Below, piece after piece: positions 4,827-55,038 of a stretch of 64,000 nucleotides of DNA (position 1 is the stretch's first letter; every line of letters starts with the position of its first letter). Position numbers and translations under genes: made by a program. The DNA is taken from contig NZ_LMIK01000005.1 in assembly GCF_001428685.1 (NCBI RefSeq), positions 577,224-641,223 of the forward strand. Direction: 5' to 3'. Below the pieces are notes generated by a model that saw nothing but the letters and a program-made list of their open reading frames with translations, was not told the origin of the DNA and did no database searches. The DNA is from Lysobacter sp. Root76. Lineage in GTDB: Bacteria; Pseudomonadota; Gammaproteobacteria; Xanthomonadales; Xanthomonadaceae.

Positions 4827-4984
4827 TGCGCAGGGGGCGCCGTCGGCTGCGGCCGGCGGCGCTTCGCGATGTCATGCGTTTTTCGATGCGCAGCAGATGA
4901 CATTCGTCAATTCCGCGCCCGCGGGTGCGCTGCCAAGGTACGCATCAAGCCGCGTCGTGGCCGGCGTGGGCAACGGAGGACCGC

Positions 4985-6049
4985 ATGAACTCGAACAGAC
5001 GCGCATTGGTGTTGGGCGCCAGCGGCGGCATCGGCGGCGAAGTCGCGGTGCGGCTGGTCCAGCGCGGCTGGGAAGTGCATGCGCTGCAGCACCGCACGCG
5101 CATGGCCGGGCGCCGCGGCAATGGCATCTACTGGTGGCGCGGCGACGCCATGAACCGCGACGACGTGATGCAGGCGGCCAAGGGCGCGGCGCTGATCGTG
5201 CACGCGGTCAATCCGTCGGTCTACCAAGACGGCGACGCGCAGTCGTTGCCGATGCTGCAGCACAGCCTGGACGCCGCGGTTGCCGGCGGCGCGCGTCTGT
5301 TGCTGCCGGGAGCGGCCTGCAACTACGGTCCTTCGGCGGCGGTCGCCGAAGACGCGGCGCAGCGGCCGCTCACCCGCCGCGGCCTGCTCCGGGTCGAGAT
5401 GGAGCGGCGCCTGCGCGATGCGGTCGCGCGCGGTGCGCGCGCGCTGATCGTGCGCAGTGGCGATCACTTCGGGCCTTACGCGGGCAACAACTGGTTCTCG
5501 CAGGCCATGGTCGAGCCCGGCCGTGCGCCGGCGAGCCTGCGCTACCCCGGCCGCGCCGGCATCGGCCACCAGTGGTGCTATCTGCCCGACCTGGCCGAAA
5601 CCATGCTGCGCCTGCTCGACGACGAGCGCCTCGGCGCGTTCGAGAGTTTCCACGTCGGCGGGCACTGGGACGCCGATGGCACCGCCATGACCGCGGCGAT
5701 CGCGCGCGCGATCGGGCGCCAGGACCTGCGCGTCAAACGTTTCCCATGGGCGCTGCTGCGCATGAGTTCGCCGCTGCTGCCGATGTTCCGCGAGATCGCC
5801 GAACTGCGCCGGCTGTGGCAGGAGCCGGTGCGCCTGGACAATCGCCGCCTGCTCGATTTCCTCGGCGAGGAGCCGCGCACCGATCTGGATACCGCGGTGC
5901 GCGAGACCCTGATCGGCATGGGATGCCTGGAGCCTGTCGCGCTGGAGCCTGCTGTGCAGGCGCGCGCCCGCGTCGCCGCGCCCGCGCCGGTCGCGACACC
6001 GATTCGCCCGCCCTCGGAACTGCCGCTGGAGTTGCCGATCGCGGCGTGA
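4985..6049 (+). CDS. NAD-dependent epimerase/dehydratase family protein
   Basis: This is a 354-residue extended-SDR-type protein. The Rossmann nucleotide-binding motif is at the N-terminus ([15 protein letters not shown], residues about 9-23), and the NAD-binding fold continues to about residue 230. The family acts on NDP-sugars or related carbonyl compounds, but the substrate is unknown here. The ATG at 4985 was chosen because a GGAGGA ribosome-binding site lies just upstream and the Rossmann motif begins directly after it. The frame is open further upstream without conserved features. The C-terminal 50 residues are Ala/Pro-rich. It appears to be a single-gene unit. Confidence 0.8.
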
Positions 6050-6178
6050 TCGGCCTGGGATCGCATCGTTCCATCCGGCGCAGGCCGGAGGCGGCGCCGG
6101 TCGGTTAGAGTGGCCACGCGCGGCCCGTGCCGCCGTGTTGCGCGGCCCGCTCGGGCGCGCGATCTTGATGGAGTTGCC

Positions 6179-7152
<974 letters not shown>

Positions 7153-8798: not shown

Positions 8799-9716
8799 TC
8801 AGTCGCGCGCGACCGCATGGCCTTCCGCCGCCCAGGCCGCGAAACCGCCGGCGAGCGGGCGCACGCGCTTGTAGCCGCGACGCTTGAGTTCCTGTGCCAG
8901 CACCGCGGCCGAGGCTTCGTTGGGACAGTCGCAGTAGACGATCACTTCATCGGCCGGCACCAGCGGCGCGTCGGACAGGGTCGCGACCAGGATCGCGCCG
9001 GGAATCCAGCCCGATTCGGCGCGCGCTTCGGCGCGGCGGATGTCGAGGATGGTCGGACCGCTGCCGTCCTCGATCATGCGGTAGAGCTCGCCGACGCTGA
9101 TCCGCGCCATCCGCAACTGGCGCAGGAACCACTGCCGGCGCACCCATTTGTAGGCGACGAAGGCCGCGATCAGGGTCAGCAGCACCGGCAGCGCGTAGTG
9201 TCCTAGCGATTCCAGCCGCTCCAGCACTTCGTTGACCGCCTTGTGGAACACCGCGCCCACCGCCACCGCGACCGAGGCCCACAGCAGCGCGCCGAGCGCG
9301 TCGAACAGCAGGAAGCGGCGTGTGCTGGTGCCGGTATCGCCGGCCAGGGTGGTCGCGACCGCGGCGAAGCCGGGCACGAACTTGGCCACGATCAGCGACG
9401 GCGCGCCCCAGCGCGCGTATACGCCGCGGGTCATCAGGACGCAGGAATCCGGCGACAGCGACAGACGGCACATCAGCCGCAGCAGTGCATTGCCGAAACG
9501 GCGGCCGCCGATGAACCACAGCCAGTCGGCGGCCACCGCGGCCAGGGAAGCGACCAGCACGATCGCGAGCAGGCTCTCGCCGCGATCGACCGCGACCGCG
9601 GCGGTGACGATGATCGGCGGATACGCCGGCACCGGCACGCCGCCCTGATCGAGCAGCACGGCGACCAGGACCACGAGCAGGCCGTAGCTTTCGATCAGGT
9701 GCAGCAACAGCTCCAT
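8799..9716 (-). CDS. DedA-family membrane protein fused to a rhodanese domain
   Basis: The 305-residue protein has an N-terminal DedA (SNARE-associated/VTT) domain with about five membrane segments at residues 5-195. It includes the conserved GGRRFG and FVPGFAAVATTLAG motifs of undecaprenyl-phosphate/phospholipid flippase-like proteins. A cytosolic rhodanese domain follows at about 205-305 and contains the active-site-like loop YCDCPNEAS, with a Cys at the rhodanese catalytic position. Such fusions are known in proteobacteria. The rhodanese part may sense or move sulfane sulfur near the membrane. The ATG at 9716 directly precedes the first helix. Confidence 0.87.
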   Translation of the reverse strand: MELLLHLIESYGLLVVLVAVLLDQGGVPVPAYPPIIVTAAVAVDRGESLLAIVLVASLAAVAADWLWFIGGRRFGNALLRLMCRLSLSPDSCVLMTRGVYARWGAPSLIVAKFVPGFAAVATTLAGDTGTSTRRFLLFDALGALLWASVAVAVGAVFHKAVNEVLERLESLGHYALPVLLTLIAAFVAYKWVRRQWFLRQLRMARISVGELYRMIEDGSGPTILDIRRAEARAESGWIPGAILVATLSDAPLVPADEVIVYCDCPNEASAAVLAQELKRRGYKRVRPLAGGFAAWAAEGHAVARD

Positions 9717-46896: not shown

Positions 46897-47793
46897 GTGT
46901 CCGTCGGACCGATCGAAGATTTCCTGGCCCATCTGCAGGTCGAGCGGCGCATGTCCGCGCATACGCTCGACGCCTACCGCCGCGATCTGCTCGCGCTGGC
47001 CGATTGGGCGCAGGCACAGGGCATCGAGCTGTTGGCCCTGCACACCGAGCAACTGCGCGGCTTCATCGCCGCCGAGCACCGGCGCGGGCTCACCCCGAAA
47101 AGCCTGCAACGCCGTCTCTCGGCCTGCCGCAGTTTCTACGGCTGGCTGCTCAAGCAGGGCCGTATCGACACCAATCCCGCCACCGCGATCCGCGCGCCCA
47201 AGGCGCCACGCAAACTGCCGCAGGTGCTCGATCCCGACGAGGCCAAGGCGCTGGTCGAAGTGCCGACCGACGTGCCGCTGGGCCTGCGCGACCGCGCCTT
47301 GCTGGAGTTGTTCTATTCCTCCGGCCTGCGCCTGAGCGAACTATGCGGATTGCGCTGGCGCGACCTCGATCTGTCCGACGGCCTGGTCAGCGTGCTCGGC
47401 AAGGGCAACAAGCAGCGCAGCGTGCCGCTGGGTTCGCATGCGCGCGCGGCCTTGGGCGAATGGCGCGCGTCGACCGGCGCCGGCAACGACGCGCCGGTGT
47501 TTCCGGGCCGCGGCGGCACGCCGATCACACCGCGCGCGGTGCAGCTGCGTTTGCGTCAGCTGGCCCAGCGCCAAGGCCTGTTCAAGCGCGTGCACCCGCA
47601 CTTGCTGCGGCATTCCTTCGCCAGCCACATCCTGGAGTCTTCCGGCGATCTGCGCGGTGTGCAGGAACTGCTGGGCCACGCCGATATCGCCACCACTCAG
47701 ATCTACACGCATCTGGACTTCCAGCACCTGGCCAAGGTCTATGACGCCGCGCATCCGCGTGCGAAGCGCAAGCCCGCCAAGAGCGACGCGTAA
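46897..47793 (+). CDS. xerC: Site-specific tyrosine recombinase XerC
   Basis: The 298-residue recombinase with XerD resolves chromosome dimers at dif. Its length equals E. coli XerC. Catalytic residues are visible: Arg in [10 protein letters not shown], His-x-x-Arg in [10 protein letters not shown], His in [11 protein letters not shown] and nucleophile Tyr in TQIYTHLD. The GTG at 46897 was preferred because the conserved SAM-like domain ([16 protein letters not shown]) starts there. An ATG at 46849 has no ribosome-binding site. In related genomes hslV tends to follow directly; here a biosynthetic cluster intervenes. Confidence 0.93.
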
Positions 47794-48176
47794 ACGCGGA
47801 CGCGGTTGCGTCGGAGTTGTTGTCGAAGTTCGTGCGGTCGCTACCGATTCGTTGATTGCTGGACGATTGCGCTCGCCGAAACCACTGCTTAATTCGACCG
47901 CGTCTTAGCCTGACCAGGCGAAGGTTTCTGTTGCGACGCAACCAAACCGTGCCGTATTGCTGCAGTGCGCATCCGAGCAGCATGAGTGGTTCGGCTCGCC
48001 GACTAGCGCTCGGGGTCGTCGCCACGGGCGTTTCGTTCGACACTCGAAATCGATGGCGCGACCGCGCATAGGCGAGCGAAAGCCAATCCCAGCAAGCGTG
48101 TAGACCTGCAGTCGCGCAGCGAATCGTCTGCCTTACGCGAACGCATGGTTGGGAAAAACGACGCCCGGAAATCCGC
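47794..48176. other. Gene-free spacer, less GC-rich than its surroundings, upstream of the peptide cluster
   Basis: The 383 bp between xerC and the cluster promoter hold no convincing open frame and no copy of the repeat families seen elsewhere. Base composition is visibly less GC-rich than the neighbouring coding DNA. It may mark the left edge of the inserted cluster or carry regulator sites; I see no clear palindrome. Confidence 0.5.
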
Positions 48177-48206
48177 TTGACGCTCTTCAAAAACGAAACC
48201 TATACT
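48177..48206 (+). promoter_or_regulatory. Strong sigma70-like promoter of the P450/M16 cluster
   Basis: TTGACG (48177-48182) and TATACT (48201-48206) are separated by 18 nt. Five of six positions match consensus in each hexamer. Transcription would begin near 48213, leaving about 100 nt of leader before the first P450 gene. This is the best promoter match I found in the window. Confidence 0.7.
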
Positions 48207-48312
48207 CGGTGTGGAGTGCAGGTGAAGGAACTCACCGTCGTTTGCAACTCCAGGCGACCCGGTCGCCATACAACTTAAGTATCAGCACCCGTGATTCAGG
48301 ATCGGAGGGCGT

Positions 48313-49452
48313 GTGTTGAAAGAAGAAGCCTGGTCCGGCTTTCAACGGGACCCGTTGGGGTTCCTGGACCGGGAGCTGTCTGGCGCAGGCGATATCGTCC
48401 AGACCGGGCGCAATGAATATTGCGTCGGAAATCCTGCCGATGCGCGCTCCGTGCTCGGCAACGCCGACGGCAGCTACGCCGAACACTCCGATTTCTTCCA
48501 CACCCGCTACGGCTATTTCGAGCCGAGATCCGCGCAACTGAAAATGCGCCGCGAGGCGCGCAGCCTGCTGCGGGATTTCCTGCAGGCGCGCGCACCCGAC
48601 GAACTGCGCGACTTCCTGCGCGAACAGCTGGCGCCGGTAAGCCAATGGCCGGACACCGGCAACCGGCTGACCTACCGATACCTGTTGCCGGTGCTGCTCG
48701 CGCCGGACCGTTCGCCGTCCCTGCGCCGCCTGCTGGATGAGATCGTCGAGCGTTCGGTGCTCGCCAATGCGCGCGCGCGCCAGCCGCGATGGCGGCGGAT
48801 GCTGCTGCAATTCAACACCACGCTGCGCCTGTCGCGTGCGATCGGCGACTGTCAGCGCGATCCGCGCACGCCGCCGAGGGACATCCTCGACATCGTCGCC
48901 CATTCCGCCGGGCCGGATCGCCGGCAGGACGAGCTGTCCGAAGTCTTTTTGTCCTTCCTGTTCGCCATTTCCGGCTCGGTGGGCTTCGTGCTGGCCTGGT
49001 CGCTGTATCTGTGGGGAACGCACCCGCGCCGCGACACGCCGGTCGAGTGGATCGTGCAGGAAGCGCTGCGCCTGTGGCCCGTCGCCTGGCAACTCGGGCG
49101 CCGCCCGACCCAGGCGCACGAACTGTCGGGCGTGAAGCTCGAGGCCTCCGACGAAGTCGTGGTCTGTCCCTACATGGTCCAGCGCAACGCCGCGCACTGG
49201 TCGGATCCGGCGCAATTCCAGCCGGAGCGCTGGGCGGATCCGCAGGCCTGGCGCAATCCGGCGTTCATTCCTTTCGGCCATGGCGCGCATCGCTGCGTGG
49301 CGGCCGACCTGGCGACGCAGTTGGTCGGCGACATGCTGCGCACGGTTCTCGAACTGGGCGAAGTCGGCATCGTCGCGCAGGGCGATCGTCCCACGGTGGC
49401 CGCGGCGATGGCGCCGCCGCCCTTCACCCTGACCCTGCGAAACAGGGCTTGA
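48313..49452 (+). CDS. Cytochrome P450, first cluster enzyme
   Basis: The 379-residue P450 has the haem loop PFGHGAHRCVA (Cys at about 328), the ExxR helix motif QEALRLW (about 250) and a PERW-type meander (FQPERWAD). The I-helix (FAISGSVGFVLAW) lacks the usual acidic-alcohol pair AGxDT. Peptide cross-linking P450s often deviate there, because they perform radical coupling rather than oxygen insertion. It probably joins aromatic side chains of the adjacent precursor. The GTG at 48313 lies 3 nt after GGAGGG; a TTG at 48316 is better spaced and may be the true start. No membrane anchor is present. Confidence 0.9.
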   Translation: MLKEEAWSGFQRDPLGFLDRELSGAGDIVQTGRNEYCVGNPADARSVLGNADGSYAEHSDFFHTRYGYFEPRSAQLKMRREARSLLRDFLQARAPDELRDFLREQLAPVSQWPDTGNRLTYRYLLPVLLAPDRSPSLRRLLDEIVERSVLANARARQPRWRRMLLQFNTTLRLSRAIGDCQRDPRTPPRDILDIVAHSAGPDRRQDELSEVFLSFLFAISGSVGFVLAWSLYLWGTHPRRDTPVEWIVQEALRLWPVAWQLGRRPTQAHELSGVKLEASDEVVVCPYMVQRNAAHWSDPAQFQPERWADPQAWRNPAFIPFGHGAHRCVAADLATQLVGDMLRTVLELGEVGIVAQGDRPTVAAAMAPPPFTLTLRNRA

Positions 49453-49582
49453 AGACAGGTAATTCCGATCGACCAAATTCGCGACGGCCGCGACGTGGCC
49501 GGCGCAGCAAGGGCACCACGGCGTGCGGAGCAGGAACCGCTCGGAGCGTCATGGCGTAAACGCAGTACTTCCACATATCTAC

Positions 49583-49588
49583 AAGGAG
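49583..49588 (+). promoter_or_regulatory. Ribosome-binding site of the precursor peptide
   Basis: AAGGAG lies 9 nt before the ATG at 49598. A near-perfect Shine-Dalgarno in front of a 33-codon frame is the main evidence that the small gene is translated. Confidence 0.8.
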
Positions 49589-49597
49589 TAGCTCGAT

Positions 49598-49699
49598 ATG
49601 AAGAACGTCATCTGTGCGATGCGCGCCGCTTTCGGCGTGCGCGGTGCTTCTGGCTGCGGCATTACCCTCTGGCGTTGGGTGATCTACCACAACATCTGA
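49598..49699 (+). CDS. RiPP precursor peptide with aromatic core
   Basis: The gene encodes 33 residues. The N-terminal about 21 residues are basic and Ala/Gly-rich with Cys at 6 and 20 (probable leader). The C-terminal part is ITLWRWVIYHNI, with Trp25, Trp27, Tyr30 and His31. The clustered Trp-x-Trp and Tyr-His are the side chains that P450s cross-link in biarylitides, cittilins and atropopeptides. The gene sits between two P450 genes, has a strong ribosome-binding site and is followed by a hairpin. It is too short for routine gene finders. The leader cleavage point is unknown; the Gly-rich segment before Ile22 is one candidate. Confidence 0.8.
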   Translation: MKNVICAMRAAFGVRGASGCGITLWRWVIYHNI

Positions 49700-49710
49700 G
49701 TGGTAGCGCT

Positions 49711-49733
49711 GGGGGCGGCGACATGCCGCCCCC
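49711..49733 (+). terminator. Hairpin directly after the precursor gene (possible attenuator)
   Basis: A perfect 9-bp stem GGGGGCGGC / GCCGCCCCC with a 5-nt loop starts 11 nt after the precursor stop. There is no U-run. Partial termination or 3'-end protection here would give more precursor mRNA than downstream enzyme mRNA, as in many bacteriocin operons. Confidence 0.65.
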
Positions 49734-49775
49734 GGCTTCGATCAGCGGTTCCCATCAGGCCCAAGGACGCGGACG

Positions 49776-51011
49776 ATGCAGGATTCGAAAGTGGTGGAAA
49801 TTCCGTCGGTGCAGGCGTTCCGTCGTCGCCTCCAGGAAGAGGGGCCGGTGTTCTGGGTAAAGGAAGACCGGGCCATGGCGATCTTCGATCCGGACGTCGC
49901 CGAGCGCGTGGAAGCGGCGAACTACGCCGATCTGACGATGCTGGACGGCTTCTCCGATATCGTGCGCGGGCGCAAGAGCGAGCCGGTGTCCTGGCATCAG
50001 GTGCGCGGGGCCTGGCTCGGGAAAATGCGCGTGCTGACCAGCGTCGAAGGCTTCAAGCAACTGGCGCTGCGCATTCAGAACCTGCTCGATGCGGAAATCG
50101 GGCGCGATCAGGACCTGGTCTGGCTGGCCGAACGGGCGATGCTCGAACCGCTGGTGTCGGCCATCATCGCCGGCCTGACGCCGCGCGCGCATCGGCGCGT
50201 GGTCGATGAAGTGATGTCGAAGGTGGCGCTGGTGCTGTCGGATATCGACGAGCACCGCTGTCCGCCGCTGCACAAACCCAAGATGTGGGTCTATCAGTTC
50301 CTGGTCGGCGTGGAGGTCAGGCGCGAGTTGAAGGGCCGGGCCAGCGGCAAGCGCCCGCGCCAGGAGGATCTGACCGATCCGATGGTGGACATGCTGCCGG
50401 AGCTGGGCCTGGATCGCGCCGCCGACGCGGTCACCGCGCTGCTGACCGCGATCACCAGTTCCCCCGGCGCCGGCGCGGCCTGTCTGTTGTTCGAATGGCA
50501 GCGCCAGCACGAATGGCGCGAGCGCATGATCGCTGAGCTGTCCGCGATTCCGCTGGACGCCCTGTGCGAATCGCCCGCGCGCCTGGCGCCGAACACCACG
50601 CGCTTCGTCAAGGAAGTGCTGCGGATCTGGAGTTCTCCGCCGATCGTGACGCGCAGCGTGCGAACCGACATCTGCGAAGGCGAAACCCAGCTCAAGACCG
50701 GGCAGGTGTACGCGCTGAGTTCCTTCTTCACCCATCACGACGCGAGCACCTGGTCGGATCCGGACGTGTTCAATCCCGACCGCTGGCTGGCCGAGAGCCG
50801 CGAGCAGTGCCCGCATGGCAGCTACGTGCCGTTCGGCTGGGCGCCCAAGTCCTGCATCGGCGCGAATCTCGGCCTGGGTCAGCTGATCCTGATGGCGCAT
50901 CTGTTCAGCACCCGCTATCGGCTGCGCATCGCCGACCCGGAGCGCGCGAAGATGGTCGTCGCCTCGGTGGTCAGGCCGATGGATTTCGTCGGCGCGGTGG
51001 TGCGTGCCTAG
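49776..51011 (+). CDS. Cytochrome P450, second cluster enzyme
   Basis: The 411-residue P450 has the haem loop VPFGWAPKSCIGA (Cys at about 360), the ExxR motif KEVLRIW (about 289) and a meander FNPDRWLAE. Its I-helix segment (TAITSSPGAGAACLL) again lacks the AGxDT acid-alcohol pair. It is clearly different in sequence from the first P450, so the two probably catalyse distinct cross-links on the same peptide. It lies 76 nt after the precursor gene, across the hairpin. No membrane anchor is seen, so it is cytoplasmic and needs host ferredoxin partners, none of which is encoded here. Confidence 0.9.
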   Translation: MQDSKVVEIPSVQAFRRRLQEEGPVFWVKEDRAMAIFDPDVAERVEAANYADLTMLDGFSDIVRGRKSEPVSWHQVRGAWLGKMRVLTSVEGFKQLALRIQNLLDAEIGRDQDLVWLAERAMLEPLVSAIIAGLTPRAHRRVVDEVMSKVALVLSDIDEHRCPPLHKPKMWVYQFLVGVEVRRELKGRASGKRPRQEDLTDPMVDMLPELGLDRAADAVTALLTAITSSPGAGAACLLFEWQRQHEWRERMIAELSAIPLDALCESPARLAPNTTRFVKEVLRIWSSPPIVTRSVRTDICEGETQLKTGQVYALSSFFTHHDASTWSDPDVFNPDRWLAESREQCPHGSYVPFGWAPKSCIGANLGLGQLILMAHLFSTRYRLRIADPERAKMVVASVVRPMDFVGAVVRA

Positions 51012-51032
51012 TCCGGCGCCTCGGAGGGCCTC

Positions 51033-52409
51033 ATGCGCGATCTGACCGAGGGTCCGATCGCCGCGCATCTGTTGCGGATGTCCGGCGTGCTGCTGCTGAA
51101 CTCGCTGGCCGGGACGGTGTTCTCGCTGGTGAACATCTACTGGTTGGGAAAGCTGGGACCGACCGCGCAGGCCGCGGTCACGCTGGCGGCGATGCCGATC
51201 ATGCTGGTGCTGATCCTGCTGCCGGTGCTCAGCATGGGCGCGGGCGTGCTGATTTCGCATGCGGTCGGCGCCAAGGACCGCGTGCGCGTCGACCGGATCT
51301 TCAACGAGGCCTTCGGCGCATCCTCCATCGTCTCGGCCCTGGTGGCGCTGCTGGCCTGGGCGAATCGCGAGGCCTTCAGCGGCCTGATGACGGCCGATGC
51401 GGCCACCGCCGCGGTGATCGCTTCCTTCTACAGCTGGTTCATCCCTTCGATCGCGATCCAGATCCCGATGCTGGTGCTGGCCTCGATGCTGGAATTCACC
51501 GGCAACGTCAAAGCCGGCGCCATCGCCCAGGTCGGCACCGTGGCCCTGGGCGCCATGCTCACGCCTGCGTTGATGTTCGGCTGGTCGGGCTTGCCGGCGA
51601 TGGGCGCCGCGGGCGCTGGACTGGCCTCGCTGCTGTCGTGCGCGGCGGTGATGCTGGTGTTGCTGGCTTACTTCACGCGCAAGGACGCCTATCTGCGCAT
51701 GCGGCCTGCGATCTGGTTCGCCCGGCCCAGGGAACTGTGGACCGCGCTGAAGATCGGCGTGCCCGCCGGCATCGGCAGTGGCGTGGTCAGCGTGTCGTTG
51801 CTGACGATCGGCTTGATGCTGCGGCCGTTCGGACCTATCGAACAGGCCGGTTTCGGCATAGGCCAGCGCGCGTTCCAGGCTGGCCTGATGCCCTTGACCG
51901 CACTGGCGGGCGCGATCTGCATCGTCGCCGGCCAGAACTACGGCGCCGGGCTGCGCGAGCGCGTGAGCCGGACGCTGCGGATCGGGCTGCTGTTCGCTGG
52001 GGTGCTGGTGCCCGTGCTGCTGATCGTGTCCGAGGGCTTCGCGCCCTGGATCGGCAGCCGCTTCTCCAGCGACCCGCAGGTGATCGCCGCGAGCGCTTCG
52101 TTCCTGCGCATCGCCGCCCTGGACCTGATTCCGCTGGGCATGGCTTCGGTCGTGTTCGCGGTGCTTTCCGGCATGGGCAATACCCGCGCCGGACTGATGG
52201 CGCAGTTGCTGCACATGACCCTGCTGGTCTCGCTGGCGTGCGGCCTGTCGCTGCTGGCGGGCTTCCGTCCGACCTGGATCTGGTGGGCGATGGTCGCCGC
52301 CGGTTCGAGCCAGGCGATGATGGCTTGGTGGTTCCTGCGCCGCGAATTCGGCAAGCCGGCCGAGGCGCCGCTGGCCGCCTCTCCCGACAGCGTTGCTGTC
52401 GCGCCGTAG
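51033..52409 (+). CDS. MATE-family exporter
   Basis: The 458-residue membrane protein has twelve predicted helices in two halves and opens as MATE proteins do (EGPIAAHLLRMSGVLLLNSLAG). The second half contains PAGIGSGVVSVS and FGIGQRAFQAG. MATE transporters are proton- or sodium-driven antiporters for amphipathic small molecules. It lies 21 nt after P450-2 and 14 nt before the M16 gene, so it is the most likely exporter of the finished cyclic peptide and may give self-protection. An ABC peptidase-exporter is absent. Confidence 0.88.
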   Translation: MRDLTEGPIAAHLLRMSGVLLLNSLAGTVFSLVNIYWLGKLGPTAQAAVTLAAMPIMLVLILLPVLSMGAGVLISHAVGAKDRVRVDRIFNEAFGASSIVSALVALLAWANREAFSGLMTADAATAAVIASFYSWFIPSIAIQIPMLVLASMLEFTGNVKAGAIAQVGTVALGAMLTPALMFGWSGLPAMGAAGAGLASLLSCAAVMLVLLAYFTRKDAYLRMRPAIWFARPRELWTALKIGVPAGIGSGVVSVSLLTIGLMLRPFGPIEQAGFGIGQRAFQAGLMPLTALAGAICIVAGQNYGAGLRERVSRTLRIGLLFAGVLVPVLLIVSEGFAPWIGSRFSSDPQVIAASASFLRIAALDLIPLGMASVVFAVLSGMGNTRAGLMAQLLHMTLLVSLACGLSLLAGFRPTWIWWAMVAAGSSQAMMAWWFLRREFGKPAEAPLAASPDSVAVAP

Positions 52410-52423
52410 CGGAGGCATGGGCG

Positions 52424-53764
52424 ATGGAAGCGACGGAACTGCAAGCGCGAGCGACGATCGCCGGCGATGAGGGGGCGACAGAACCGTCGTCGAGCCGCGA
52501 CGGGGGCATCGAGGAGCGCCGCCTCGCGGCGAACGGCCTGAAGATCCTGCACTTGCCGATGCGGACCGCGCCGGTGGTCTTGCTGATGGTCACCTACGAG
52601 GTCGGCAGTCGCCACGAGCGCGCGGGTGCGCGCGGCGCGAGCCATATGCTCGAACACATGATGTTCAAGGGCAGCGCTAATTTTCACAAAGGTCAGGGCA
52701 ATTCCATACACCAACTGCTGCTGCCGCTAGGCGCGCAGGTCAACGCCACCACCTGGTACGACCGTACCCACTACTTCGCCCTCGCACCGCGCGACAGCCT
52801 GGACCTGATCGCGCAGATCGAGGCGGATCGGATGAGTAACCTCAGCCTCGATGCCGCGGAGCTCGCGACCGAGAAGACGGTCGTGCTGAATGAATTCGAC
52901 CGCCTCATCGGCGACCCACTGGAACAACTGCTGCAAGCGGTCTGGGGTGCCGCCTTCGCCAGCCATCCCTACGGTATGCCTGTGATAGGCCGGCGCGAGG
53001 ACATCGAAGGCTTCGGGCGCGAACATCTGCTGGCGCACTATCGGGCGCACTACCGGCCCGACAACGCCACCATCACCCTCATCGGCGACGTCGAGCGCGA
53101 CGCGGCGCTGGAGACCGTCAGGCACCGCTTCGAAGGCATCGCCGCGCGGCCCGGGCCGGAGGCGGCGCAACTGCCCGAGCCGGAGCAGGACGACGAGCGT
53201 CGGGCCACGGTGGAATGCCCAGGGGCGCCGGGGATCGTCATGCTCGCCTACAAGTCGCCTTGCGGCCTCGATCCCGACGTGGACGCGCTGGAGGTACTGG
53301 GGCGGGTGCTGGCGGGCGGGCGATCGTCGCGGCTGTACCGTCGCCTGGTCGCGGCAGGTCTGGCGACGGAGGTATGGGCCGACGTGTCGCGCTTGCGGCA
53401 CCCCGGCATGTTTCAGTTGAGCGCGGTCGTGCATCCCGATGCCGACCATCGGCGTGTCGAGTACGCGATGCGCGCTGCGGTCGAGGAAGTTCGTGCCGGA
53501 ATCGCCGACGAGGAGCTGGCCCGCGCCCAGTCGCAGATCTGCGGCAGATTGCTGACCTCGCGCGACGGGCCGCTGGCGATCGCCATGCAGTTGAATGAAG
53601 CCATAGCTGCCGGCGATTGGCGCAGCTACGCCACTGCGGCCGAGCGCGTCGGTGCGTTGACCGCGGGCGACGTGGCGCGTGTCGCGGCGCGTTACCTGGG
53701 CGAGCAGCGGCTCACCGTGGGCTGGCTCGTGGACGCAGCGGATCGCACGGCGCTTTCGTCATGA
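52424..53764 (+). CDS. M16 family zinc metallopeptidase, catalytic subunit
   Basis: The 446-residue protein has the inverted zinc motif HMLEH (His74, Glu77, His78) and a candidate distal Glu in EKTVVLNEF (about 150-157). Two M16 half-domains follow. No signal peptide is present, so it works in the cytoplasm, where the unexported precursor is. It is a good candidate for leader removal. The ATG at 52424 has GGAGG 8 nt upstream. It overlaps the next gene by 4 nt (ATGA), implying a 1:1 complex with the partner subunit. Confidence 0.9.
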   Translation: MEATELQARATIAGDEGATEPSSSRDGGIEERRLAANGLKILHLPMRTAPVVLLMVTYEVGSRHERAGARGASHMLEHMMFKGSANFHKGQGNSIHQLLLPLGAQVNATTWYDRTHYFALAPRDSLDLIAQIEADRMSNLSLDAAELATEKTVVLNEFDRLIGDPLEQLLQAVWGAAFASHPYGMPVIGRREDIEGFGREHLLAHYRAHYRPDNATITLIGDVERDAALETVRHRFEGIAARPGPEAAQLPEPEQDDERRATVECPGAPGIVMLAYKSPCGLDPDVDALEVLGRVLAGGRSSRLYRRLVAAGLATEVWADVSRLRHPGMFQLSAVVHPDADHRRVEYAMRAAVEEVRAGIADEELARAQSQICGRLLTSRDGPLAIAMQLNEAIAAGDWRSYATAAERVGALTAGDVARVAARYLGEQRLTVGWLVDAADRTALSS

Positions 53765-55038
53765 GCACAGACCAGAAGTCGCACGGGCTGCAGTCTGTCG
53801 CGACGGTGCCGCTCGCGCATGGACATTTCTACGGACTGCGCGCGGCGGTGCCGTCGATCGTTGCGCTGACCGGCACGTTCCGCACGGGGACGGCGCTCGC
53901 GCCGGGAGGCACGGTGCTGCAGAGCTTGGTCGCCGCCTTGGTGGGCTGCGCCAATCGCCGGCGCGGCCCGGTCGAGATCGCGGAATTGCTGGAAGCGCGT
54001 GGCGCTTCGTTCACGGTCGAGGCCGATGCGGACGGAGTTCGCTTCTCCGCGCGCGCCCGCACGGTCGATCTGCCGCAGCTCGTGGACTGGACGTTGGAGT
54101 GCCTGCGCGAACCCGAGTTCGACCAGACCCTGCTCGACGTCGAGCGCGCCCGCCTGATCGCGGAACTGCAGTATCGCGCGATGGATTCCGCGTACATCGC
54201 GACCGGCGCGTTGACGCGCATGCTCTATCCGCAGGCGCATCCGGCTTACGAGCCCGATCCCGCCGAACAGGTCGCCTTGCTCGAAGGGTTCACCGTCGCC
54301 GACGTACGCAGGTTTCACAGCGAACGCTACGGCGCCAACGATCTGCGCATCGCGGTCGTGGGCGACGTGGACCCGCAGGCGGCGGCGCGTCTGGTCGAGC
54401 GCGGCGTGCAAGGATGGGCGCCGCGTGCCGTGCCGGAGGCGACGCAATGGGGCGAGCCTGCCGCCGGGCCGGACAGCCAGCGACTGCTATTGCCGGGGCA
54501 GGAAAGCTACGGCGTCGCAATGGGTCAGCGCTTGGCGCAGGAGCGCACGCATCCGGATTACCCGGCCCTGCGCTTGGCCAACCGCATCCTGGGCGGCGCG
54601 TTCTCCTCGCGCCTGGTCTCCAGCGTTCGCGAACGGCAGGGGCTCTGCTATGTCATGCGCTCCGAACTCGGCGAATCCCGGCGTGGCGGCGGCCATTGGC
54701 AGGTCGTGCTGTCGGCCAGCCCCGACAAGCTGGAGGCTGCGCTGGCGGCGACGCGTACGGTGGTCGAGCAGCTGGCGAAGACCGGCGTGGAGACGCGGGA
54801 GTTCGAGAATGCGCAGCGCGCCGCCATCGGCGCGTTCCACATCGGCTTGGCGACCCTGGACGGGCTGAGCGATGCGATCCTGTCGGCCGCCGACCTGGGT
54901 TGGGAGCCGGACGATCTGCTCGGCTTCGAACGGCGGACCGCGGCGGTCACGCTCGCGCAGATCGATCGCGTCATCGGCTATTGCCTGCGTCCGCAGGAAT
55001 GGCGGACCTGCATCGCAGGGCCGGCTGCCGCCGATTGA
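53761..55038 (+). CDS. M16-like protein without zinc motif, partner subunit
   Basis: The 425-residue protein has the M16 fold but lacks HXXEH. The conserved Arg/Tyr substrate-binding features of non-catalytic subunits are present (SSVRERQGLCYVM, residues about 285-297; FSSRLVSSV). Such proteins pair with a catalytic M16 subunit, as in AlbE/AlbF of subtilosin biosynthesis or mitochondrial processing peptidase. It is translationally coupled to the upstream catalytic gene. It ends the cluster, 138 bp before hslV. Confidence 0.88.
   Translation: MSTDQKSHGLQSVATVPLAHGHFYGLRAAVPSIVALTGTFRTGTALAPGGTVLQSLVAALVGCANRRRGPVEIAELLEARGASFTVEADADGVRFSARARTVDLPQLVDWTLECLREPEFDQTLLDVERARLIAELQYRAMDSAYIATGALTRMLYPQAHPAYEPDPAEQVALLEGFTVADVRRFHSERYGANDLRIAVVGDVDPQAAARLVERGVQGWAPRAVPEATQWGEPAAGPDSQRLLLPGQESYGVAMGQRLAQERTHPDYPALRLANRILGGAFSSRLVSSVRERQGLCYVMRSELGESRRGGGHWQVVLSASPDKLEAALAATRTVVEQLAKTGVETREFENAQRAAIGAFHIGLATLDGLSDAILSAADLGWEPDDLLGFERRTAAVTLAQIDRVIGYCLRPQEWRTCIAGPAAAD

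Follow-up and report, generated by a model that had tools for sequence, protein, structure and literature searches.

Cytochrome P450 enzymes that modify ribosomally synthesized and post-translationally modified peptides (RiPPs) are already known as a kind, and several described systems invite comparison with a six-gene locus of Lysobacter sp. Root76, in which a gene for a 33-residue peptide lies between two P450 genes. The locus belongs to a 64,000-nucleotide stretch (contig NZ_LMIK01000005.1, positions 577,224 to 641,223), hereafter the window. In the atropopeptides or bitryptides (tryptorubin and the products of ScaB), a short precursor is likewise encoded beside a P450, and the links span W-x-x-W or W-x-x-Y (PMC11450843, PMC12352619). 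Some atropopeptide clusters have additional P450s, two P450s act jointly for laurentirubin B, and members from Xanthomonas are predicted with nearby proteases (PMC11450843). In biarylitides and cittilins the P450 links span three or four residues, and myxarylin has one between Tyr and His (PMC13192836, PMC12951456). Aminopyruvatide (ApyA/ApyO) of Burkholderia is a Gram-negative RiPP with a cross-linking P450, and hyalucidin A (doi 10.1002/anie.202522698, cited in PMC13417212) is, by its title, a bacterial RiPP made by tandem P450s. Interest in peptides cross-linked by P450s comes from their promise as rigid scaffolds that resist proteases.

In the window, the interval between xerC and hslV is occupied by six co-directional genes:

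48313..49452, + strand: P450a, with a GTG start (Pfam p450)
49598..49699, + strand: peptide (precursor) open reading frame (ORF) of 33 amino acids, MKNVICAMRAAFGVRGASGCGITLWRWVIYHNI
49776..51011, + strand: P450b (Pfam p450)
51033..52409, + strand: MATE exporter (Pfam MatE, TIGR00797)
52424..53764, + strand: catalytic M16 subunit, HMLEH with a downstream ExxxxxxE (Pfam Peptidase_M16)
53761..55038, + strand: non-catalytic M16 subunit, in which HxxEH is absent (Pfam Peptidase_M16)

An earlier note on this DNA had described a peptide gene between two different P450 genes, then a MATE exporter and an M16 pair, all co-directional behind one promoter; coordinates, strand and Pfam matches agree with that description, and a single sigma-70-like site precedes the set. 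Its proposal of a RiPP-type cluster is strengthened by two results presented below: the short ORF is kept in 11 of 11 clusters, its retention in homologous clusters having been set beforehand as a test, and the P450s fall into clades of their own. We consider it very probable that the cluster directs the biosynthesis of a ribosomally made, P450-cross-linked peptide, with two side-chain links, removal of the leader by the M16 pair, and export. The broad hallmark of a P450-modified RiPP, a precursor with leader and core that is conserved together with a P450, is found here (24 precursors in 11 clusters; one upstream of all 24 full-length genes of the P450b family). The gene set, the precursor family, this co-conservation, the catalytic and non-catalytic M16 motifs and the P450 clades can be regarded as established by sequence comparison.

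The precursor gene and its surroundings are organized as follows:

49583..49588, + strand: Shine-Dalgarno-like AAGGAG of the precursor gene, from the sequence
49598..49645, + strand: leader MKNVICAMRAAFGVRG, with A7, G13 and R15 shared by all 24 type A precursors
49646..49669, + strand: variable spacer ASGCGITL, whose length and sequence differ among the 24 precursors
49670..49699, + strand: conserved C-terminal segment WRWVIYHNI with the stop codon, presumably the core (all 24 precursors have W-[RHF]-W-x-x-Y-H)
49708..49736, + strand: G+C-rich hairpin directly 3' of the precursor stop, with no long T run (folding energy z -3.6)

Precursors of this form, designated type A, number 24 in the 11 clusters and are 30-38 amino acids long, each with a leader M-x5-A-x5-G-x-R, a variable spacer and the end W-[RHF]-W-x-x-Y-H-[NHT]-[IM]. 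They were gathered with the pattern W.W..YH, and that part of the core is therefore shared by construction; pattern-free ORF listings show the same C-terminus. The precursors, one to four per cluster, differ mainly in the spacer and keep the aromatic C-terminus. A search of 395 genomes of the family for the DNA pattern W[RH]WxxYH[NT]I-stop gave 19 matches, all in nine cluster genomes and exactly the 19 precursors found there, while a reversed control gave 0 among the matches listed. A chance ORF is ruled out by the confinement of this pattern to cluster genomes, the conservation across 24 precursors and the empty background of the leader scan given below; as judged from these comparisons, the short peptide gene is real. 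A hairpin with z of -2.5 or lower follows the stop in 18 of 24 precursor copies (the window and 17 of 23 others; mononucleotide shuffles). Because it has no long T run, it is read as a partial terminator or a protector of the message. Sixteen of the 24 precursors have a single Cys in the spacer, in the window at 49655-49657. Recurring blocks (GCAGCAAGG, GGCGTAAACGCAGT, CCACATATC) lie 5' of many Lysobacter precursor copies, in the window at 49476-49597; such conserved upstream sequence is visible among Lysobacter copies and ragged outside Lysobacter.

These precursors bear directly on the nearest described family. The atropopeptide core, xWxxWx or xWxxYx, has its counterpart in the W-x-x-Y of all 24 type A precursors, although here another conserved Trp comes before it. 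We regard it as unlikely that the locus is simply a divergent atropopeptide cluster and not a family of its own. Speaking for that assignment, besides the W-x-x-Y in the C-terminus, is the prediction of Xanthomonas atropopeptides with xWxxYx cores and nearby proteases (PMC11450843). Against it, none of the 24 type A precursors and none of the nine distinct precursors of the related types B and C described below has the KSLK-type motif that characterizes the leaders of atropopeptides, no KSLK-type precursor being found in the loci examined, and both the pair of P450s and the extra Trp two residues upstream are conserved. Further differences are the YH[NHT][IM] end, the MATE exporter and the M16 pair. 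According to PMC12352619, no atropopeptide had been reported from Pseudomonadota. The biarylitides are more distant: their precursor comprises five residues (PMC13417212), whereas the peptides here have 30-38 with a long leader. In contrast to aminopyruvatide, the P450s fall short of the ApyO cut-off (525 bits), none of the six genes encodes an MNIO, and the precursors have no YLYD end.

A P450b search of 395 sampled genomes of the family found nine, the window included, with a close P450b (at least 52% identity), and in all nine P450a, MATE and both M16 genes adjoin it, with the MATE-M16-M16 part inverted in L049. Between P450a and P450b lie 1, 4, 3, 3, 1, 3, 1, 2 and 1 peptide genes (in the window, L015, L016, L017 and L045-L049, respectively), 19 in total. 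An order-wide search with an alignment of 22 P450b proteins (299 genomes) retrieved eight genomes, seven of them already known, plus G606, from another family, with the full gene set and three precursors. The phylum search (398 genomes) returned two known genomes, a partial match in G801, and G820, from another order, in whose locus (L084) two precursors and both P450s are accompanied by an ABC exporter. The entire set is thus found in 10 genomes of two families, and an eleventh, from a third lineage, has the peptides, both P450s and the ABC exporter. Searching the class with P450a (369 genomes) added a partial match in G1149 alone, which was used just in the P450 tree. Partial matches to P450b that cover the heme domain, at E 1e-17 or weaker in the family search, were kept out of the family count. 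Family, order, class and phylum were each represented by a sample of genomes, and in the wider searches a few of the best first-look candidates were scored; absence there is accordingly not complete. No close plasmid-borne relative emerged from tblastn of P450b against 72,556 plasmid records, of which 292 matched, all below 60% identity and the ten best at 23-25%.

Both oxidative enzymes of the window are recognized by the Pfam p450 model (80.3 bits for P450a and 72.5 for P450b; cut-off 22.8). P450a has the heme loop FGHGAHRCVA and EALR as its ExxR motif, and P450b the heme loop FGWAPKSCIG; in 10 of 10 clusters both P450s have the heme Cys loop, and no substitution in the ExxR pair is seen when 11 P450a and 22 P450b-family proteins are aligned. 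Orthologues of P450a are 54-85% identical in the eight other family clusters, 59% in L083 and 40% in L084; for P450b the values are 52-82%, 61% and 32%. The best NCBIfam model for either enzyme is ApyO (NF050147), at 74.1 and 55.1 bits, far under its cut-off. An AlphaFold2 model of P450b (predicted local distance difference test, pLDDT, 84.6; below 50 for residues 340-359, before and at the heme loop) matches P450 folds, and that of P450a (pLDDT 62.5) is too poor for any reading beyond 'P450 fold'. A tree of 44 P450s places the 11 P450a rows in one clade (100/100) and the 24 rows of the P450b family in another (100/99), separate from nine other P450s. Twelve loci were tried as sources of other P450s, three of which were left out (an ORF outside the length limits, or none); among the nine retained, L063 and L087 represent the partial matches of G801 and G1149. 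The tree carries a long-branch warning that includes both L084 rows, and L084 is the outermost of the clusters in both clades. The window's own genome yielded no further P450 (Pfam search, E up to 0.001), the cluster pair being the sole two P450 genes found. Assignment to the ordinary small-molecule P450s, an outcome the earlier note had allowed for, is disfavoured by the separate clades and by the lack of another P450 in that genome.

Whether both enzymes form cross-links is a separate matter. It is possible, if doubtful, that just one of them does so while the other hydroxylates or otherwise tailors the peptide, giving a monocyclic product. P450a and P450b are only about 22% identical over 231 aligned residues and sit in separate clades; 13 P450b-type genes have a precursor and no P450a within 19-20 kb; and P450s of RiPP pathways are also able to hydroxylate or epoxidise (PMC13192836). 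The W, W, Y and H of the core, on the other hand, accompany both P450s in 11 of 11 clusters, which is more in keeping with two cross-linking enzymes, the arrangement that we favour.

The remaining genes would supply maturation and export. The MATE protein scores 127.5 bits against Pfam MatE (cut-off 24.9) and 154.9 against TIGR00797 (cut-off 147.4), and is 47-80% identical to its counterparts in the nine other clusters that possess it. For Peptidase_M16 the first and second M16 proteins score 69.8 and 25.3 (cut-off 22.3). The first contains HxxEH and a downstream E-x6-E in 10 of 10 clusters, and in the aligned segments of the second HxxEH is absent in 10 of 10, so that adjacent catalytic and non-catalytic subunits are present in all 10. 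Such adjacency is a feature of paired M16 RiPP proteases, and AlbE/AlbF are an M16 pair that divides the labour on the subtilosin precursor. Akin to the pair here, the heteromeric leader proteases PttP1/PttP2 act on RiPP precursors (PMC10885120). The pathways of PttP1/PttP2 and AlbE/AlbF differ from the present one in leading to class III lanthipeptides and subtilosin, and the word P450 occurs 0 times in the main text of PMC10885120.

We infer the cross-links and their partners, the order of steps, the cut site, export and the biological role as follows. The operon would be transcribed from the promoter ahead of P450a, and the short leader (M-x5-A-x5-G-x-R, probably a helix) would guide the precursor to the P450s, P450b being the most likely partner, since stand-alone P450b-type enzymes keep a similar leader. 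Each P450 would then install one oxidative side-chain link in WRWVIYHNI. The simplest pair of links would be W1-x-W3 and W3-x-x-Y6, which share the second Trp; the His beside the Tyr is an alternative partner and could be joined to Tyr or to Trp. P450-made rings of three and four residues are known in biarylitides and cittilins (PMC13192836), and the atropopeptide P450 ScaB closed W-x-x-Y rings on precursors from Pseudomonadota (PMC12352619). The W-x-W and Y-H bridges proposed by the earlier note fare unequally: the former fits the core, which also contains an overlapping W-x-x-Y, while nothing singles out the adjacent Y-H bridge. The M16 pair would cut off the leader in or near the spacer, and the MATE protein would export the product, taken to be an antagonistic or signalling peptide. 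The system is compact and testable: its parts are a substrate of 33 residues, two P450s and a dedicated protease pair, and the 24 precursor variants found in nature reveal the changeable positions.

More distant members of the P450b family extend the comparison. Thirteen relatives at 28-33% identity were found, and each of these P450 genes is preceded, at a distance of 146-213 nt, by a short ORF with a ribosome site. The 19-20 kb of sequence surrounding them showed no P450a, MATE or M16 gene, matches to P450a falling on the P450b-type genes themselves. Eight of the peptides (type B, for example MARLLRAARVAMNIHPNETSSLWKTWPLWVEF; L018, L019, L020, L050, L052, L053, L054 and L055) lie 170-213 nt upstream and end in WxxWxxW[VI]EF, and five (type C, for example MTRLIRALQVSLNLRSDNSTQCIRSKYRYWNIF; L021, L022, L051, L052 and L053), two of them with GTG starts, lie 146-175 nt upstream and end in YxYWxxF. 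Type B is apparently another P450 RiPP type; a search with one type B string found no paper on it in the open PMC literature, and five core strings were found in no open PMC paper. The leaders of both types retain A7, [GN]13 and [RH]15, and because types B and C have P450b alone, this enzyme may be the one that reads the leader. L084 P450b branches outside all others, those of types B and C among them (support of 90/84, which does not earn the tool's star), a position that would favour an old P450 pair and a later loss of P450a from types B and C over its later addition. These single-P450 sister types offer a starting point for studying how pathways of this kind acquire or lose a second P450. 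In L052 and L053 the type B and type C loci are about 3 kb apart; the gene between them is LuxR-type in L053 and has a homologue in L052.

A scan for the leader followed by an aromatic end, covering both strands of 22 loci (899,042 bases), gave 37 ORFs, every one of them upstream of a P450b-family gene and no more than 1.3 kb from it; all 24 full-length genes of the P450b family are preceded by at least one such peptide, and none occurs elsewhere in the scanned bases. We consider it highly improbable that the peptide is a signal or a small structural protein and that the P450s act on an unrelated small molecule. The peptide-derived product is itself a prediction, which is the one point in favour of that idea, but precursor copies have increased in number and differ mainly in the spacer, with the aromatic C-terminus kept constant, such an ORF precedes every full-length P450b-family gene, and the neighbours in the window (DAP epimerase, DUF484, xerC, hslV and hslU) include no biosynthetic gene of a secondary pathway.

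Several points weigh against the reading of a cross-linked peptide made by this gene set. The leader pattern of the scan was derived from the same peptides, so that its matches arise by construction and its independent part is the empty background. In 212 cross-genome precursor pairs, which are not independent and exclude L084 and same-genome pairs, the fixed core codons show 120 synonymous and 41 non-synonymous differences, which speaks for the reading, yet with the two x positions included the core shows 173 and 333, respectively, and the leader 982 and 798. The partial P450b relative in G801 has no such peptide near its approximate place. In L084 the 17 kb of sequence fetched contained nothing that matched MATE or M16; as its P450s are followed by an ABC exporter gene (4874-6637), MATE and M16 are not regarded as essential parts of the kernel. 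Finally, the identity of the joined residues, and cross-linking by both P450s, are put forward as a proposal only. We see about an even chance that the locus represents a bicyclic peptide family of Gram-negatives, in which two dedicated P450s would form links that overlap on one Trp, W-x-W being fused to W-x-x-Y and His perhaps taking part, an M16 heterodimer would remove the leader and several precursors would give sets of products, the whole being a branch of a superfamily defined by leader and P450b with at least three core types (WxWxxYH, WxxWxxW[VI]EF and YxYWxxF).

The earlier note had also held that this gene set was not a characterised system in a Gram-negative host. That statement stands for the open literature covered, where a search by title and start of abstract found no paper on P450 RiPPs of Lysobacter (subscription journals being mostly uncovered); the words P450, RiPP and Lysobacter occur together in four papers. 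It is tempered by PDB 9ULW ('Cytochrome P450'), which shows that a relative is being worked on: the entry is 99.7% identical to L084 P450a over 367 residues, with one difference, perhaps an engineered mutant, and 39.6% identical to P450a of the window. The near identity places the P450a branch of L084 already under study, although no paper on 9ULW was found in the open PMC literature, and a fold search (library to April 2026) did not have it among the 50 matches listed. We make no claim of full novelty, since 9ULW, the title of the hyalucidin A report and the atropopeptide reports of two P450s (laurentirubin B) and of Xanthomonas members count against it.

The immediate surroundings of the six genes comprise the following:

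48177..48206, + strand: sigma-70-like promoter TTGACG-18-TATACT (sequence scan, aligned counterparts)
46897-47793: xerC (TIGR02224, 363 bits against a cut-off of 335)
from 55177: hslV, the downstream neighbour of the six-gene set

The promoter is the only sigma-70-like site in 47790-49800 (shuffle mean 0.3). It aligns with CTTGACG...ATACTC 5' of P450a in L015, L016, L017 and L045, four other hslV-adjacent clusters, in which the -35 and most of the -10 are repeated at the aligned place. No Rfam match was found in 47700-50000 at E up to 1. A defence system was considered and rejected, no PADLOC family being found for any of the five proteins.

The genomic site itself bears on the history of the cluster. 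The hslV gene was located in 20 of 20 genomes of the genus; in 15 the xerC-hslV distance is 118-947 nt, leaving no room for the cluster, and in four, the window included, the cluster lies between the two genes. L045, from another genus, has it at the same site; the other clusters have no hslV in the stretch fetched. In G012 (L110, about 9500-9575), a stretch that agrees at 67 of 74 nt with the end of the L016 gene for the second M16 protein sits between xerC and an M23-peptidase gene, the same gene that follows the cluster in L015 and L016. Because this M16-gene remnant persists there, G012 probably once had the cluster, which has since been deleted.

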